From positions 1 to 6,302 of the forward strand of contig JAFGLK010000092.1 in NCBI GenBank assembly GCA_016928125.1: a stretch of DNA of 6,302 bases, read 5' to 3'. Each line of letters begins with the position of its first letter. Within the stretch, counting starts at the first letter, position 1. The position numbers were made by a program, and so were the translations under genes. Shown here piece after piece: positions 1 to 6,017 of the stretch. The notes beneath the pieces were generated by a model. That model was not told where the DNA came from, did not search any database, and was given only the letters and a program-made list of their open reading frames with translations. The DNA comes from Anaerolineae bacterium. Its GTDB lineage: Bacteria; Chloroflexota; Anaerolineae; UBA1429.

Positions 1-917
1 ACGATCGCCAGCGCGCCAACTCCCCCCGCAAGCAGTCCCAGTAGGCCAGCCTCCGGCCCAAAAGGGCCCCCGGTCCACAGGGCCGGCCCTGCCTGGCGAA
101 TGCTGAGCACCGTAGCCTGGGTCAGATCAATGCCGCTGACGGGGAAGCCGAACACATTCCCCTCAAAGAAGTTCCAGGTGATGTGTAACCCAATCGGGAT
201 CGCCAGGTTGCCGGTCAGCACGAATCCCAGACCGAGGAACATGCCCGCCAGCATCAGATAGAGGGTGCTGACGAGCGTCGCGTTCGGGTTGTTGGCATGC
301 ACCCAGCCAAAGAGCGCAGAGGAGATCAGCCAGGCCAAGGCGACAGCCCAACGAGGACTGACCGGTTGCAGATTGAGGCCTTCCGCCAGATTTGTGAGCA
401 GGTACCCGCGGAAGGTCACCTCCTCGCTGATGCCCACGAACACAAAGAGACTGAGCGGCCCCAGAAGGGCGAGGAGAAAGGGCTGATCGCCGCCCCGCAC
501 ATGCAGCGCATCGCGTACGGTCACCCAGCCCAGCCCCCACTGGACGGCAAAGATGCCAGTCATTAGACCGGCCCCCAACGCCAGGCCAAAGCCGAAATCG
601 CGCCACCAGCGTCGGTCGAGGTGGAAACCGAAATCGGCCAGAGGACGACGATCCAGCAAGCGCCCGGCCAGCCACAGAGCTACGCCAAGGGGTACCAATC
701 CAAGAAGTGACCACACCAGCGAGCGCGCCGCAGTAAGTGCTACCCTGCTCAGCAGTTGGCCAAGAGCCAGTTCAGCCAATGCCATGGCCAGCCAGGCGAG
801 CACCAAGCGCCAGAGGGCCCGAAGCCGGCGCTCGTGGCTGTTCCAGAGCGGCAGCGTGACCAGACGCCATGCGCGGCGCCAGACGCCCACGGATGTGCCT
901 CGGCTGGGCCCTTGCAT
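1..917 (-). CDS. CPBP-family intramembrane metalloprotease (CAAX protease/Abi-like), C-terminus beyond the left edge
   Basis: Reading the minus strand from the ATG at 917 gives 305 codons with no stop before the window edge. The protein is hydrophobic and probably has about eight membrane helices. It carries all three conserved CPBP motifs: EEVTFR at residues 165-170 (EExxxR), FGWVH at 203-207 (FxxxH) and HITWN at 245-249 (HxxxN). In this family these Glu and His residues form a metal-dependent active site within the membrane. RPLADFGF near residues 90-97 is also typical of such proteins. A strong purine-rich ribosome site (GGGGAGGGGGA) lies just before the ATG, which fixes the start. The known part is already about full length for the family, so few residues should be missing. 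Family members include prenyl-CAAX proteases, bacteriocin self-immunity proteins and many of unknown target; the substrate here cannot be read from sequence. The small exported protein gene lies upstream on the same strand. Confidence 0.9.
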   Translation of the reverse strand, partial: MQGPSRGTSVGVWRRAWRLVTLPLWNSHERRLRALWRLVLAWLAMALAELALGQLLSRVALTAARSLVWSLLGLVPLGVALWLAGRLLDRRPLADFGFHLDRRWWRDFGFGLALGAGLMTGIFAVQWGLGWVTVRDALHVRGGDQPFLLALLGPLSLFVFVGISEEVTFRGYLLTNLAEGLNLQPVSPRWAVALAWLISSALFGWVHANNPNATLVSTLYLMLAGMFLGLGFVLTGNLAIPIGLHITWNFFEGNVFGFPVSGIDLTQATVLSIRQAGPALWTGGPFGPEAGLLGLLAGGVGALAI

Positions 918-1140
918 GCTTCCCCCTCCCCGCGACTTCACGGCCTTGTTGTACTGCCGAATGGTCCGCAGGGCAAGGACGAGTGCGCAGGCTGCTCGGG
1001 CTGATCGGAACTGCGAACCACGTCATGGGAACACCACGTCCGCTGCACAAGATGCGGCAGCAGAAACGCGGCTCAATGGGGCGTGCCGGCTAGCAGCCTG
1101 GAACGACTGAGAGGGGGAACGCAAACGACGCGGCCCGGCG
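918..1140. other. Intergenic region between two minus-strand genes, with an 8-base direct repeat
   Basis: These 223 bases separate the stop of the small exported protein gene from the CPBP protease start. They contain the protease ribosome site, a weak candidate promoter, and two exact copies of ACCACGTC at 1017-1024 and 1033-1040, a 16-base period. No convincing hairpin followed by a T-run, and no tRNA or other RNA gene, was seen. Confidence 0.5.
948..976 (-). promoter_or_regulatory. Candidate sigma-70-type promoter for the CPBP protease gene
   Basis: On the minus strand a TTGCCC -35-like hexamer (976-971) and a TACAAC -10-like hexamer (953-948) are separated by exactly 17 bases. Each matches four of six consensus positions. 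Transcription would start near 941, giving a leader of about 24 bases that contains the ribosome site. It is plausible from spacing but weak by match, and it would make this gene independent of the upstream minus-strand gene. Confidence 0.35.
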
Positions 1141-1560
1141 TTAGTCGCTGTCCCAGCGCGCGGCATAGTGGCCGTAGGCCTTGGCGAGGGCGATCTTGAG
1201 CTTCCACTCGCCAGCCACGGCAGTAAAGGCGCGACTCACATCCAGAGCATCAGGGCCTGTGATCTGGTTCGTCCAGCGCACCTTTCCATGAGGGTCGAGG
1301 AGGACCCAGGCTAGAGCGCCTGAGCCGAGCTCTGACTCGAGACGGAGAGTCACCCTCCTAACGCCATGATGAACCGCAAAGAGGCACGTCGTCACATCGG
1401 TGGTGCCGCTCAAGCTGACCACGTCATCACCAGGGGCATCTGCCGCGTAGATGGCGCCACCAGCCAGGACGGGGCGTGCCCAAGTGGCGGACCTGGCGGC
1501 CACACAGGCAACCACCAGCGTCATCAACAGCAAAGAGAATCCCAGGGCGCGGCGTCCCAT
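1141..1560 (-). CDS. Small exported or lipoprotein-like protein of unknown function
   Basis: A 139-residue protein of no recognised family. The N-terminus looks like a secretion signal: two arginines at 3-4, a hydrophobic core (residues 6-18), then VVAC with Cys19, which fits a lipobox. Lipid anchoring outside the membrane is possible; cleavage by signal peptidase I nearby is the alternative. The mature part has alternating hydrophobic strands, a second cysteine (Cys59), and an ending that reads GEWKLKI then GHYAARW. That resembles the last strands of a small beta-sandwich of the pre-peptidase C-terminal or P-domain type, but this is only an impression. A GGGGGAGG ribosome site lies about six bases before the ATG and supports the start. 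The gene is divergent from the HTH-kelch regulator and upstream of the CPBP protease on the same strand, so it is a candidate target or partner of either. Overlapping plus-strand frames look like shadows. Confidence 0.72.
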   Translation of the reverse strand: MGRRALGFSLLLMTLVVACVAARSATWARPVLAGGAIYAADAPGDDVVSLSGTTDVTTCLFAVHHGVRRVTLRLESELGSGALAWVLLDPHGKVRWTNQITGPDALDVSRAFTAVAGEWKLKIALAKAYGHYAARWDSD

Positions 1561-1737: not shown

Positions 1738-1766
1738 TTGTGAGGCATTCCTAGCTATGGTAGAAT
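1738..1766 (+). promoter_or_regulatory. Extended -10 promoter of the HTH-kelch regulator gene
   Basis: TTGTGA (1738-1743, four of six to the -35 consensus) is followed after 17 bases by TAGAAT (1761-1766, five of six to the -10 consensus). A TGn extension at 1758-1760 precedes the -10. Transcription should begin near 1773. That leaves only about six bases before the upstream ATG at 1779, but about 21 bases, including a ribosome site, before the ATG at 1794. The promoter therefore supports the later start. Confidence 0.6.
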
Positions 1767-1793
1767 CGACGCGAATTCATGACAGAGGATCAC

Positions 1794-3155
1794 ATGGCCG
1801 AGCCCGCCCCCAATCCATTGAGTGCCCGCGAGATCGAGATCCTGGAGCGCGTCGCCACTGGTGCGACCAACCAGCAGATCGCCGTTGACCTGGACATCAG
1901 CATTAACACCGTCAAGGCGCATCTGCGCAACATCTTTGCGAAACTGGAGGTCGAATCGCGCACCGAGGCGACTCTCTACGCGATCCAATTCGGTCTGGTC
2001 GAGCTTCCGGGCACCGAGGGCGAGAGAGGGGCAGGCGAGGCAGGCGCTGAGGCTTCAGATGAAGCGGCGGGCCAGAGGCTGACGGCTCTCCGACGTGCGT
2101 GGCCGGTCAGTCGAGCGCAGCAGATTTTTGCGGTGCTGGTGATGGTCCTGGTGGTGGTCGTGAGCATATGGCCCACGCGGGCCACCACATCCCCTGCCCC
2201 TATTTCGGGGCGCATGGTGGACGTGCCAGCTCCTTACGCGGGAGCGAACCAGGCAGAGAGTGAAGATCGCTGGCAGGTACGTGCGCAGATGCCTACACCC
2301 CGAGGGCGTTTCGCGATCGCCACGCTGGATGAGAGCGTCTACGTCATCGGCGGTCTGGGGGCCAATGGCTGGACCTCTCGGGTGGAGGTGTACGATGCCC
2401 AGCAGGATCTGTGGGGGCGCCGCGCGGACAAGCCTACGGCGGTGGCCAATGTGGGCGCTGCCGTGGTCGATGGCCTCATCTATGTGCCTGGGGGATTGGA
2501 TCAGAACAATGCCGTTCGCGATCTGCTCGAGATCTATGATCCGATCCAAGACCGTTGGTCGCAAGGTCCCGCACTGCCTACATCACTCTGCGCCTATGCC
2601 ATGGCGCCCTATGGTGCAGGATTCTACCTTTTTGGGGGCTGGGACGGGGAGCGCTATCTAGACACCGTCTACTACTATGATGCCGCGAAGCGCCTTTGGC
2701 AGACGGGCTCTGCTCTGAAAATCGCAAGAGGTTTTGGCGCCGCAGCGACGGTGGGGGATCGCATCTATCTTTTGGGCGGCTATGATGGCACCGTCGAGTA
2801 TGCGCTCTGCGAGTCCTACGACCCCACCCGGGCGGCGAGCGGCGCCGAGCCCTGGCTGACCCACACGCCGATGCGGATCGGCCGCGCGGGACACAGCGTT
2901 AGCATCGTGGAGAACAGCCTCTATGTGGTGGGCGGTGGCTGGGACCAGCCGTTCAGCTACAACGAGCGCTACGATCTGCGCAACGACATCTGGTCTACCC
3001 TGCCTAGCCCCCTCACCGGCGAATGGCGGACGCTGGGCACAGCCGGCTTGACGGCGCCGGAAGGCTCGAGCTTGTATGCCATCGGCGGATGGCACGACGG
3101 CTATCTGAACGTCGTATACGCCTATCGGGCCACATATCGGGTGTTCCTGCCCTAG
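1794..3155 (+). CDS. Membrane-anchored LuxR/GerE-type HTH regulator with external six-bladed kelch propeller
   Basis: This 453-residue protein joins three parts. Residues 9-69 form a complete GerE-type helix-turn-helix (LSAREIEIL, then NQQIA, then INTVKAHLRNIFAKL). A Gly/Glu-rich linker (71-93) and a basic stretch (RRAWPVSR, 100-107) lead to one membrane helix at about 110-127. The basic residues predict the DNA-binding end inside and the rest outside. Residues 158-453 form kelch repeats, with glycine pairs at 186, 233, 281, 328, 380 and 431, tyrosines before Asp at 200, 248, 295, 342 and 393, and tryptophans at 207, 255, 302, 354 and 400. The early DRW strand (158-160) probably closes the sixth blade. 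No receiver or kinase domain is present, so this looks like a one-component membrane regulator, similar in logic to ToxR or CadC but built from other domains. I chose the ATG at 1794 because AGAGGA lies five bases upstream and the promoter leaves almost no leader for the ATG at 1779. Ligand and target genes are unknown. Confidence 0.88.
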   Translation: MAEPAPNPLSAREIEILERVATGATNQQIAVDLDISINTVKAHLRNIFAKLEVESRTEATLYAIQFGLVELPGTEGERGAGEAGAEASDEAAGQRLTALRRAWPVSRAQQIFAVLVMVLVVVVSIWPTRATTSPAPISGRMVDVPAPYAGANQAESEDRWQVRAQMPTPRGRFAIATLDESVYVIGGLGANGWTSRVEVYDAQQDLWGRRADKPTAVANVGAAVVDGLIYVPGGLDQNNAVRDLLEIYDPIQDRWSQGPALPTSLCAYAMAPYGAGFYLFGGWDGERYLDTVYYYDAAKRLWQTGSALKIARGFGAAATVGDRIYLLGGYDGTVEYALCESYDPTRAASGAEPWLTHTPMRIGRAGHSVSIVENSLYVVGGGWDQPFSYNERYDLRNDIWSTLPSPLTGEWRTLGTAGLTAPEGSSLYAIGGWHDGYLNVVYAYRATYRVFLP

Positions 3156-3233
3156 ACCGGGTCTGAATGTGGACAGCAACCCAAAACCACAACATTGCGG
3201 AAAGGATCACAGCCCTTGGCAGAAGAGAGTCAG

Positions 3234-3659
3234 ATGGATGCCCAAGTCAGATGGGTCACGGGCCTGCAATTCGTCGGTCAGGCCAGCGTAACCAACATTG
3301 CCCTGGTGCTGGATGGGGCCGCCGAGTTCGGTGGCCTGGATGGCGGTGTGCGCCCCATGGAGGCCCTACTGATCAGTCTGGCCAGCTGTACGGCCATGGA
3401 TACCTTGTCCATCATGCTCAAGAAGAAGCAGCGAGTGACGGGCTTTCACGTCAACGCCCATGCCCAGCGGGCCGAGGAGCACCCGCGGTCATTCCAGCAT
3501 ATAGAGCTCGAGTTCATCGTGCGGGGCCATGACATCTCGGCGGCGGCGGTCGAGCGCTCGATCGAGCTCTCACAGACCAAGTACTGCGCTGTAACCAGCA
3601 GCCTCAAGGCGCAGGTTGTGTATGGCTATCGCATCGAACCGGAAGAGGAAGCGCGCTAG
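3234..3659 (+). CDS. OsmC-family protein (YhfA-like), possible thiol peroxidase
   Basis: The 141-residue product matches the OsmC/Ohr superfamily along its length: an opening VRWVTGLQFVG strand, RPMEALLISLASCTAMD (residues 40-56) with the first conserved cysteine at 52, RAEEHPRSF (79-87), and IELSQTKYCAVTSSL (110-124) with the second at 118. Studied OsmC and Ohr proteins use these two cysteines to reduce organic hydroperoxides and are recharged by dihydrolipoyl groups. The CTAMD form of the first motif points to the YhfA-like branch, whose function is less certain. I chose the ATG at 3234 because family members usually begin just before this strand; its ribosome site (AGAGAG, close spacing) is modest. 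A TTG at 3216, preceded by AAAGGA at 3201-3206, would add six residues and is a real alternative. The gene ends with TAG directly against the ATG of the lipoamide dehydrogenase gene, so the two are probably translationally coupled. Confidence 0.88.
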   Translation: MDAQVRWVTGLQFVGQASVTNIALVLDGAAEFGGLDGGVRPMEALLISLASCTAMDTLSIMLKKKQRVTGFHVNAHAQRAEEHPRSFQHIELEFIVRGHDISAAAVERSIELSQTKYCAVTSSLKAQVVYGYRIEPEEEAR

Positions 3660-5069
3660 ATGGCGTCCCCATACGATCTCGCGATCATTGGCGCCGGCCC
3701 TGGGGGCTATGTGGCCGCCATCCGCGCAGCTCAGCGCGGGGCTCGTGTGGCTTTGATCGAGAAGGACAAGCTCGGGGGGACGTGCCTCAACCGGGGCTGC
3801 ATCCCCACCAAGGCGATGGTTCAAGACGCCGAGATGTTCGCGGCGGCCAGCTCGGGCATCTACTGTATCGAGGCAGACACGCCACTCCGCGTGAACTTTC
3901 CGCGTATGATGGCGCGCAAAAGAGAGGCCGTCGCCGGCCTCGTGGGCGGCATTGAGCACCTTCTGGAGACTTACCAGGTTGATCGGATCTCCGGGCACGG
4001 GCGCATCATGCGGCCCGGTCACGTCCAGATCGATGGACCCGACGGGCTGGCGACGATCGAGGCCACGGCGATCATCGTTGCGACCGGGTCGGTTCCAGCG
4101 CGGCCGCGCATCCCAGGCCTGAAGCTGCCGGGCGTGCTCACCTCGGACGAGCTCTTGGAAATCGAGAGGCTCCCCGAGAGCCTGGTGGTCATCGGGGCCA
4201 GCGTAGTCGGCATCGAGTTCGCCTGCATCTTTGACGCGCTAGGGACCAAGGTGTCCGTCTTGGGGCGCCAGACCTTTCTCAAGGGCGCCGAGCCGCAGTT
4301 GGCCAAGCGCTTCCAGGCCATGCTCTCTCGTCGTGGGGTCTCGGTCACCATCGGTCTCGATTTCGATCGCATCGAGCGCACACCTGAGGGTCAGTTGCGC
4401 GTCCATTACTCGAGGCGAGGTCAGGCGGCCTTTGCCGAGGGTGAGCTTGTGCTTGTATCCACGGGCCGGCGCCCGTTTGCCGAAGGGCTGGGTCTCGAGG
4501 ATCTGGGCGTGCGCATGCATGGGCCGGCCATCGCTGTCAATGAGGTTCTGGAAACCTCCGTCCCTGGGATCTATGCCATCGGTGACTGCATCGGAGGCTA
4601 CCTGCTGGCCCATGTGGCCTCATATGAAGCTGAAGTCGCGGTGGACAATATCCTGGGGGTGCGGCGCCAGGCGGACTATGCCGTGGTGCCAAACTGCATC
4701 TTTACTATGCCCGAAATCGCCGGCGTGGGCTTGACGGAAGCCGAAGCCAAGGAGAAGGGGCTCGATTACCGCGCCACGCGCTTTCCCTTTAGCGTGAATG
4801 GGCGAGCGGTGGCCATGGGCGAGTCGGAGGGCCAGGTGCGCCTGATCTGCGAGCGCACCGCCGCCGGCAAGGCGGGGCGTGTGTTGGGGGTGCACATCAT
4901 GGGGCCGCGCGCCAGCGATCTCATCGCCGAGGCAGGGCTGGCCATGCGTTTGGGGGCTACGGCCGAGGAGATTGCGCAGACGATTCACGCCCATCCCACC
5001 GTGCCCGAGGCCTTGATGGAGGCCGCCATGGCGCAGACGGTGGGCGCCATTCACTACCAGAATCGCTAG
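3660..5069 (+). CDS. lpdA: Dihydrolipoamide dehydrogenase-type pyridine nucleotide-disulfide oxidoreductase (E3-like)
   Basis: A full-length 469-residue flavoprotein, predicted cytoplasmic, that would oxidise dihydrolipoyl groups with NAD or the reverse. In order it has the FAD-binding GAGPGG (11-16), the redox disulfide C42 and C47 in GGTCLNRGCIPTK, ATGS (141-144), an NAD-binding fold at 176-187, the second FAD motif GIYAIGDC (303-310), and a dimerisation domain ending in HAHPTVPE with the catalytic pair H445 and E450. These residues favour a true lipoamide dehydrogenase over mercuric reductase or soluble transhydrogenase. The NAD motif is odd: it reads GASVVG with Ser181 where the second glycine of GxGxxG is usual, a variation also remembered from mercuric reductases. 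The start abuts the osmC stop; a GGAAGAGGAA stretch upstream can serve as ribosome site. No E1, E2 or glycine-cleavage gene is visible, so the partner may be the OsmC protein or an unlinked complex. Confidence 0.93.
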   Translation: MASPYDLAIIGAGPGGYVAAIRAAQRGARVALIEKDKLGGTCLNRGCIPTKAMVQDAEMFAAASSGIYCIEADTPLRVNFPRMMARKREAVAGLVGGIEHLLETYQVDRISGHGRIMRPGHVQIDGPDGLATIEATAIIVATGSVPARPRIPGLKLPGVLTSDELLEIERLPESLVVIGASVVGIEFACIFDALGTKVSVLGRQTFLKGAEPQLAKRFQAMLSRRGVSVTIGLDFDRIERTPEGQLRVHYSRRGQAAFAEGELVLVSTGRRPFAEGLGLEDLGVRMHGPAIAVNEVLETSVPGIYAIGDCIGGYLLAHVASYEAEVAVDNILGVRRQADYAVVPNCIFTMPEIAGVGLTEAEAKEKGLDYRATRFPFSVNGRAVAMGESEGQVRLICERTAAGKAGRVLGVHIMGPRASDLIAEAGLAMRLGATAEEIAQTIHAHPTVPEALMEAAMAQTVGAIHYQNR

Positions 5070-5111: not shown

Positions 5112-5396
5112 ATGGTGGTAGGAATCTGCACGCTGAGCCTACGCATCGCGGGCAGCCGCTCCCTCAAAGACAAGCGCCAGGTGCTGCGTTCCATCCAGGC
5201 GAAGGTACGCAACCAGTTCAACGTATCGATCGCCGAAGTGGACAACCAGGATAGCTGGCAGTTGGCGACCTTGGCCTTGGCGTGCGTCTCCTCAGATCGC
5301 GGCTATGCCCACGCCTTGTTGGAGCGTGTGGTGCAGTTCGTTGACAGCGGGCGGTTCGACCTGGAGCTTCTCGACTATGAGACCGAGTTCCTCTGA
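5112..5396 (+). CDS. DUF503 (YlxP-like) family protein
   Basis: The 94-residue product is recognisable as DUF503. It begins MVVGICTLSL, then has SRSLKDKRQVLRSI (15-28), FNVSIAEVD (36-44), NQDSWQLATLALACVSSD and a C-terminal LELLDYETEFL. Family members are small cytoplasmic proteins with a ferredoxin-like fold. YlxP is encoded within the nusA-infB-rbfA region of Bacillus, hinting at a link to ribosomes or translation, but the molecular role is not settled. The ATG at 5112 fits the usual family start and is preceded by AAGGGGAG (5095-5102) with nine bases of spacing. The in-frame ATG at 5091 has no ribosome site and would add seven residues, so I rejected it. The gene follows the lipoamide dehydrogenase gene after 42 bases and is probably in the same transcript. 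No translation-factor genes surround it here. Confidence 0.92.
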   Translation: MVVGICTLSLRIAGSRSLKDKRQVLRSIQAKVRNQFNVSIAEVDNQDSWQLATLALACVSSDRGYAHALLERVVQFVDSGRFDLELLDYETEFL

Positions 5397-5492
5397 AGTC
5401 AGGCCAGGTCGCGCCCTTGGGCCTGCCAGCGGCGATGGGTGCAGGGGTCACCTTGGCTGTATCTGACTTGTTGGTGTCAGGAGGCTTGCCTG
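5397..5492 (+). other. Gap between the DUF503 gene and the small membrane protein gene
   Basis: Ninety-six bases without a recognised gene. It holds an AGGAGG ribosome site at 5479-5484 and a small inverted repeat, CTGAC (5463-5467) with GTCAG (5476-5480), whose right arm overlaps the first two bases of that site. No T-run follows any hairpin, so read-through from the upstream genes is likely. Confidence 0.4.
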
Positions 5493-5795
5493 ATGTTCTT
5501 CCAAGTTCTGGGTGTGTCGGCCCATGTAGCCACGATTCTGCTTGCCCTGGAGATCATGGTACTGGGACTGGTGCCCTTGTTCATTCTGCTCAAGATCACC
5601 CAGGGACTGCGACGCCTCATGGCCTGGCTCGTGCCGGCCATGCGGACCGTTCAGGCCAGGACAATCCAGGTACAAGCGTGGATCGAACGCGCCATGGGAA
5701 TCGTGCGTGCCCCATTCGTGTGGGGCAATAGGATTTCCGCCCAGGTGCACGCGAGCGTAGAGAGCATTCAGCAGCCCTTTTCTCGAAGGAGGTGA
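5493..5795 (+). CDS. Small single-pass membrane protein, unknown function (possible YtxG/DUF948-like role)
   Basis: A 100-residue protein with one strongly hydrophobic segment at about residues 12-33, containing one glutamate (Glu20). After it comes a basic, helix-prone tail with little hydrophobicity (KITQGLRRLM onward) that ends in SRRR and is probably cytoplasmic. I recognise no family with confidence. A membrane helix followed by a long helical tail, beside a glycine-rich one-helix partner, recalls the ytxG (DUF948) and ytxH pair of Bacillus, but similarity is only architectural. The start at 5493 is set by a perfect AGGAGG at 5479-5484 with eight bases of spacing; the in-frame ATG at 5439 lacks one and would prepend cysteine-rich sequence. 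Its stop codon lies within the next gene's ribosome site, so the two are probably made together. Confidence 0.72.
   Translation: MFFQVLGVSAHVATILLALEIMVLGLVPLFILLKITQGLRRLMAWLVPAMRTVQARTIQVQAWIERAMGIVRAPFVWGNRISAQVHASVESIQQPFSRRR
5786..5795 (+). promoter_or_regulatory. Near-perfect Shine-Dalgarno overlapping the upstream stop codon
   Basis: AAGGAGGTGA is fully complementary to the usual 16S rRNA 3' end. Its last three bases are the TGA stop of the 5493-5795 gene. Six bases separate the GGAGG core from the TTG start at 5799, which explains how a weak start codon could be used and suggests coupled translation. Confidence 0.8.
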
Positions 5796-5798
5796 AAC

Positions 5799-6017
5799 TT
5801 GAACGATCGCTTACGCTATGTCGCAGGTGGCGCTGCTTTGGGCGCTGTGGTTGGCGCATTGGCGGGACTGATCGTGGCGCGATCGCATGGCCCTGAGCCA
5901 GCTGCCGAGGGTGAGCGCGCCGTCCCTGCCAAGCAACGCGAACTGGATACCGGGCGCATCTTCCGTCTGGGCGCCTCGGTGATCGGCGTGGTTCGCCAAA
6001 TCCTGGAACTGGCCTGA
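5799..6017 (+). CDS. Small glycine-zipper membrane protein (YtxH-like), TTG start
   Basis: A 72-residue protein with one membrane helix at about residues 8-27. The helix carries glycines exactly four residues apart (11, 15, 19, 23), a GxxxG glycine-zipper pattern that favours tight helix packing or oligomers. A charged linker rich in Glu, Ala and Pro follows. A second amphipathic stretch (LDTGRIF, then LGASVIGVVRQILEL, residues 49-71) could lie along the membrane or bind a partner. YtxH-type stress proteins share the glycine-rich N-terminal helix, but assignment to that family is unproven. Translation starts at TTG 5799, set by an exceptional Shine-Dalgarno that overlaps the previous gene's stop. 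It appears to be the last gene of the unit that begins with osmC or lpd. The long antisense frame across this region looks like a composition artefact. Confidence 0.72.
   Translation: MNDRLRYVAGGAALGAVVGALAGLIVARSHGPEPAAEGERAVPAKQRELDTGRIFRLGASVIGVVRQILELA

Follow-up and report, generated by a model that had tools for sequence, protein, structure and literature searches.

In Bacteroidota, regulators of the Reg_prop/Y_Y_Y type carry an extracytoplasmic propeller that is joined via one helix to a LuxR-type helix-turn-helix (HTH) domain. CadC and ToxR are described as having a cytoplasmic DNA-binding domain, a linker, one helix and a periplasmic sensor that work together with no chemical modification (PMC6320335). 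A survey of transmembrane transcription regulators (TTRs) took as such any protein that joins a DNA-binding domain to one or more transmembrane regions; about 56% of its entries are single-pass, and Chloroflexota are named in it for hybrid TTRs, while its main text mentions neither LuxR nor GerE, kelch or propeller (PMC10269533). Among LuxR-type proteins, DadR, HcdR and CadR of Eggerthella lenta are described as 12-TM activators, in which 10-12 helices at the N-terminus precede an HTH at the C-terminus (PMC9734109).

Here we analyse a 6,302-nt window, by which we mean the whole stretch of DNA under study, that encodes a protein combining a GerE HTH, one hydrophobic helix and a kelch propeller.

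The gene, its start and its promoter-like site

An uninterrupted frame runs from 1779 to 3155 on the + strand and ends with the stop codon TAG at 3153-3155. It holds in-frame ATG codons at 1779 and 1794, and the second is probably the start of the regulator (1794..3155, + strand), because a Shine-Dalgarno-like AGAGGA (1784..1789, + strand, read directly from the sequence) stands 4 nt before it, because a promoter-like site leaves ATG 1779 nearly leaderless, and because its methionine hardly varies across 30 aligned homologues. The same start had been chosen in an earlier sequence-only reading of this DNA, and is backed by these three observations. The promoter-like site is of the sigma-70/A type (1738..1766, + strand), with TTGTGA at 1738-1743, a 17-nt spacer and the extended -10 TGGTAGAAT at 1758-1766; it has 9 of 12 matches and TG ahead of the -10, and one such site was found where shuffles expect 0.5. 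A strong extended -10 was also present in 32/80 non-redundant orthologue upstream regions, compared with 8.3 in mononucleotide shuffles, by a score chosen after the sequences had been seen. Beyond this promoter pattern, no evident separate palindrome that might act as an operator was visible by eye in parts of 59 of these 80 upstream regions.

Domain architecture and predicted fold

Residues are given in the 458 numbering unless stated, the AF2 model having 453 residues. The N-terminal GerE/LuxR-type HTH (residues 13-68; 1815..1982, + strand) matched PF00196 with an E-value of 1.6e-20 and 72.9 bits (curated cut-off 23.5). It is followed by a hydrophobic 19-residue segment at residues 113-131 with a Kyte-Doolittle (KD) mean of 2.4, the next best segment elsewhere in the protein reaching 1.42, which we annotate as a single predicted transmembrane signal-anchor helix (2115..2171, + strand). 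The remainder is a six-bladed kelch propeller with a C-terminal R-x-[YF]-x-P tail (2271..3152, + strand), for which Kelch_1 gave E 8.7e-42 and 140.7 bits against a cut-off of 20.1, five stretches passing singly. In the AF2 model (81 aligned sequences, mean pLDDT 89.6), four HTH helices are followed by a long helix at 112-130 (458 numbering) and then by strands that we read as six blades, while pLDDT is partly below 50 in the linkers flanking the helix (78-101 and 130-136 in the 453-residue model). Both the repeated kelch motif and propeller closure were recovered (Pfam, model and Foldseek), and in the model it is apparently the first strand d, near residue 165, that completes blade 6. The best Foldseek match of the propeller was SAKe (TM-score 0.87), followed by Keap1/KLHL proteins (about 0.80-0.85, all by target length), and the top phmmer match was KLHL20 (E 5e-57). 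The protein belongs neither with the NanM/YjhT mutarotases (NANM 36 bits against 45; TIGR03547 33.4 bits against 256.35) nor with the NarL/FixJ response regulators, the Pfam scan having returned no receiver domain and the HTH being N-terminal.

Pfam, hydropathy and the AF2 model thus confirm the GerE HTH, the one hydrophobic helix and the six kelch units that the sequence-only reading had seen in one frame, with domain bounds correct to within a few residues; the structure prediction proposed there as a check gave a helix where the hydrophobic segment lies, followed by strands read as six blades. That reading had further likened the final YRVFLP to C-terminal endings of exported Chloroflexota proteins. 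The motif is kept within the regulator family (P458 in 205/209 and R454 in 172/209 aligned proteins), but YRVFLP as a general ending of exported proteins is not supported, a related core occurring in the last 25 residues of 5/900 neighbouring ORFs and not above its frequency in protein interiors. A YLP-type C-terminal tag was rejected on the same count of ORF tails, which showed no enrichment over protein bodies.

A probable single-pass topology

Although its sequence drifts, the segment between HTH and propeller has a KD value above 1.6 in 206/209 aligned proteins, the exceptions being L028 (1.35), L022 (1.57) and P0103, a protein of 331 residues with no GerE domain. Mean pairwise identity, taken over 3000 random pairs, stood at 71.5% in the HTH, 46.6% in the propeller and 29% across the helix, and fell to 28% and 18% in the two linkers that flank the helix. 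The flanking charge agrees weakly with an N-inside topology: lysines plus arginines within 20 residues of the helix numbered 2.18 before and 1.84 after it in the 209 aligned proteins, with more before in 91, fewer in 56 and a tie in 62. We also inspected six further proteins whose propellers are related, and five of them (L159-L163, not L164) begin with what we read as signal-peptide- or lipobox-like sequences. We consider it likely that the protein is a single-pass, membrane-tethered regulator with its propeller outside the membrane. The hydrophobic segments and the export-like starts support the earlier proposal of an HTH tethered to the membrane, its propeller probably lying outside, and the segment of mean 2.4, modelled as a helix, speaks for the stable membrane helix that this proposal needs.

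Family, distribution and domain order

A protein search returned 2200 proteins at E<=1e-3 among the best 7993 candidates scored. GerE stood beside kelch profiles in 117 of the 120 matches listed, by our own count, and the hydrophobic segment was present in 117/117 proteins of at least 400 residues, the window's regulator included; the recurrence of the family is far above chance. A scan in which every bacterial or archaeal species was represented by a single genome gave 159 confirmed stretches, of which the best 80 were examined (L001-L080). In the first 32 of these (L001-L032), all with Chloroflexota titles and mostly from Anaerolineae, both HTH and propeller were matched, the matches of L030 and L031 reaching only residue 358 and 369.

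Within Anaerolineae, the class of one member genome, 259/396 genomes had a match at E<=1e-40, mostly one copy each. For the full architecture this figure is a maximum, as the weakest matches may be propeller only; it may also miss some members, as four candidates per genome were scored. Among the matches listed, all span HTH and propeller except those of G198 and G084 (propeller part) and of G212 and G085 (end cut). Two full-length copies were listed in each of G082 and G295, and exactly one in 16/16 genomes picked for holding the gene. In the class represented by a Dehalococcoidales genome, HTH and propeller together were found in 0/148 genomes, and the 6/148 that matched did so through the propeller alone. 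This is the taxonomic spread that the sequence-only reading had proposed to plot for GerE, helix and kelch in combination, and from sequence comparison the regulator is a conserved family, widespread in Anaerolineae. That reading had also named, as evidence that would speak against it, many characterised proteins of the same architecture; homologues are many, and we found no characterised one. Nor did searches of the open-licence PMC literature with kelch terms return a publication on the GerE-TM-kelch architecture.

The order of domains is, by homology, unusual among GerE relatives. In 47/48 of the next GerE relatives, whose frames were read (L033-L080), the HTH is C-terminal; in the 48th, L033, it comes first and the frame runs into the contig end, so that L033 looks like a contig-cut member of the regulator family. 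An N-terminal GerE domain with a helix occurred in 0/10 longer GerE frames chosen from three genomes, a sample that set aside the kelch members already known and most of the frames about 900 aa long. Since the HTH is N-terminal, a single uncleaved helix can set HTH and propeller on opposite sides of the membrane.

A conserved propeller face as a candidate ligand site

We assigned loop classes from the strands of the model and compared conservation between the two faces of the propeller. The DA and BC loops, which form the face used by Keap1, were more conserved than the AB and CD loops (mean information 2.40 vs 1.49, permutation p 5e-5), also when GG, W, G and P were left out (2.07 vs 1.35, p 1e-4). 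Part of this conservation is, on comparison with exported propellers, generic to kelch. Arg175 and Arg369 recur in 5/5 exported propellers compared and an arginine at 317 in 4/5, and because these arginines are common to exported propellers, much of the basic ring appears to be generic kelch; as a special site for an anionic ligand, the ring was in large part rejected. More specific to the family than the arginines are Tyr273, Trp416, Tyr293 and Asp336, as well as Asn395, which had one match in the five exported propellers. A redox switch formed by a Cys271-Cys344 disulfide was also rejected, for the two cysteines do not co-vary (both in 118, the first only in 46, the second only in 32 and neither in 13 of 209 proteins; Fisher p 1.0).

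Some of the related propellers belong to very large proteins: L159:4495-10824, L161:2893-9903 and a giant frame in L160 encode exported-looking proteins of about 2100-2340 residues, and the two that were scanned, L159 and L161, contain Peptidase_S8, DUF11 and kelch.

The osmC-lpd-DUF503 cluster and other neighbours

Downstream of the regulator, on the same strand, lies a gene for an OsmC-family, YhfA-like protein (3216..3659, +; probable start TTG 3216; PF02566 E 2.3e-16, PRK10738 below cut-off), which begins 60 nt past the regulator; no + strand terminator was found. A gene for dihydrolipoyl dehydrogenase, lpd (3660..5069, +; TIGR01350 481.7 bits, cut-off 408.8), follows directly after the osmC stop, and then one for a DUF503 protein (5112..5396, +; PF04456 E 9.1e-32), whose ORF is listed from 5091, relatives suggesting ATG 5112 as its start.

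We compared 93 regulator loci, which correspond to 87 distinct ones as six regulators are present twice. In the 11 distinct window-like loci, defined by at least 48% identity to the window's regulator (L001-L008, L026, L032 and L091), tblastn found both osmC and DUF503 downstream on the same strand in 11/11, and lpd in 9/11, the two without a match being L004 and L026. All three genes are present in L019 (44.4% identity), and L011 (45.5% identity) has lpd and DUF503 without osmC. The other 79 loci (74 distinct), some of which have little downstream DNA, showed no osmC or lpd at E<=1e-4, and L135 a DUF503 match only. ORF clustering put osmC and lpd in 9 loci each, an undercount relative to tblastn, and neighbour clustering over the 93 loci found no neighbour conserved family-wide. 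The osmC-lpd linkage is, among the loci compared, restricted to the window's clade.

In one studied case, Ohr of Xylella is reduced by lipoylated proteins and functions in a lipoamide dehydrogenase assay, whereas the activity of YhfA is described as unknown (PMC5962072). The OsmC protein of the window is closest to YhfA by NCBIfam. We therefore infer, rather than observe, an OsmC-Lpd redox pair.

The divergent small exported protein suggested as a target in the sequence-only reading is not supported, having had no tblastn match at E<=0.01 in the loci compared; it is encoded at 1141-1560 (- strand) and has a hydrophobic N-terminus and no Pfam match. As a putative target of the regulator, the osmC-lpd-DUF503 cluster is better supported by gene order, in the window's clade alone.

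The window also encodes, at 3-941 (-), an intramembrane protease of the CAAX type (Rce1-like), whose weak matches to myxosortase stay below cut-off. At 5439-6017 (+) lie two small membrane-type proteins, the first resembling, by eye, a 93-residue protein downstream of the L004 regulator and the second having a weak Gly-zipper match below cut-off. Further downstream in L032 (11238-13597, +) are NfnAB-like subunit genes (FNR-like and GltD-like, named from L032 alone), which clustered in 7 and 8 loci. In 21/93 loci (19/87 distinct) a protein with a tyrosine-recombinase fold is convergent with the regulator, for example at L012:2465-3517 (-), L027:1409-2323 (-) and L109:5896-6855 (+). When compared with the residues that we take to be catalytic in recombinases, 21/21 are without the first arginine (mostly TGIKK-E) and without the LGH histidine, and 0/21 have a tyrosine at the usual place, two having one elsewhere in the tail; this neighbour looks like a conserved pseudo-recombinase. 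Relatives of it, active or not, occur in 328/396 Anaerolineae genomes at E<=1e-50.

Discussion

Domain content, the hydrophobic helix, the fold prediction, conservation, distribution, gene order and the promoter-like site were computed, whereas topology, a sensing role, dimerisation and targets are inferred. As a whole, our best explanation, which we hold to be moderately probable, is a type II transmembrane regulator of the one-component kind, sensing an extracytoplasmic cue and, in the window's clade, controlling its own osmC-lpd operon. The GerE HTH would stay cytoplasmic, the one helix would serve as signal-anchor and the kelch propeller would lie outside the membrane. A cue would bind the conserved face formed by the DA and BC loops and change the dimerisation or conformation of the regulator, and this change would be relayed by the helix and by a flexible linker some 40 residues long, such that the HTH would bind DNA as a dimer; neither kinase nor phosphotransfer would be needed. 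The likeliest target in the window's clade would be the regulator's own operon, regulator-osmC-lpd-DUF503, in which case an envelope signal would adjust the OsmC/lipoamide-dehydrogenase redox pair. Autoregulation of this operon in the window's clade is quite possible, although we would not count on it, as a gene order common to one clade may be plain inheritance.

A broader reading, which we regard as possible if rather doubtful, makes the protein a class-wide, near-core sensor of Anaerolineae that arose by an ancestral fusion inverting the GerE order, so that an outside kelch propeller would drive a LuxR-type HTH directly, with a face reading one common envelope or surface ligand and an operon rewired between clades, osmC-lpd being its form in the window.

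Regulated proteolysis, in which the anchor would keep the HTH inactive until cleavage in or near the membrane frees a soluble GerE fragment, seems unlikely. The low-confidence, poorly conserved linkers flanking the helix would suit it, but they show no conserved site for cleavage; likewise, the window does encode an intramembrane protease, whose relatives among the loci compared are limited to L004, a place that also appears as L084. Moreover, CadC is described as dimerising on its signal, with no cleavage mentioned in the account drawn on here (PMC6320335).

We think it quite unlikely that the protein is anchored but non-sensory, in which case the propeller would serve for assembly or as a scaffold, and the HTH would tether the chromosome to the membrane or repress constitutively. 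A place at the head of a metabolic cluster in one clade argues against such a role, even if one copy in most genomes and no family-wide neighbour are what a housekeeping factor would show. Kelch propellers often bind proteins, which favours a scaffold; the conserved loop face is what one would expect of a ligand site, yet it would look no different if it bound proteins. Finally, a wholly cytoplasmic protein with the hydrophobic segment as a buried linker helix is highly improbable, for although the positive-inside bias is weak and two of the 209 proteins that carry an HTH fall below KD 1.6, the segment reaches 2.4 here, exceeds 1.6 in nearly all relatives and has low-confidence model stretches on both flanks.

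Anaerolineae are a large, mostly uncultured class. If our preferred explanation, that of an extracytoplasmic sensor and one-component regulator, holds, this mostly single-copy protein, present in as many as 65% of the sampled genomes (259/396), is a candidate core way for Anaerolineae to read their surroundings, and its family-conserved propeller face offers a concrete site for ligand fishing. It would also widen the range of TTRs to include kelch propellers and LuxR-type HTH domains placed at the N-terminus.

Comparison with known systems

The regulator probably shares its working layout with ToxR-like proteins (ToxR, CadC and TcpP), the order of HTH, membrane helix and propeller and the single helix being observed (Pfam, hydropathy and AF2) and the location of the propeller outside being predicted; it differs from them in having a GerE HTH and a kelch sensor instead. 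The DNA-binding domain of ToxR is a winged helix, and Trans_reg_C is absent from the 16 Pfam matches of the regulator, which, because the winged helix is missing, is not a member of the ToxR family. The ToxR/CadC-like, kinase-free action suggested in the sequence-only reading would thus hold by analogy, with unrelated domains. With the NarL/FixJ and MalT-type proteins the regulator has the HTH family in common, but in those the HTH is C-terminal and the proteins are mostly soluble, so that the order is reversed here. The propeller has the same six-bladed kelch fold as designed SAKe propellers and as Keap1/KLHL proteins, which are eukaryotic BTB-kelch ubiquitin-ligase adaptors, and no functional kinship is implied. 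The Reg_prop/Y_Y_Y regulators have another propeller family and the opposite domain order. In keeping with the structural definition of a TTR, the regulator joins a DNA-binding domain to a transmembrane helix predicted by hydropathy and model, and unlike the Chloroflexota TTRs named in PMC10269533 it is not a hybrid. It shares a membrane-spanning LuxR type with DadR, HcdR and CadR of E. lenta, for which no propeller is described in the parts of PMC9734109 drawn on here.
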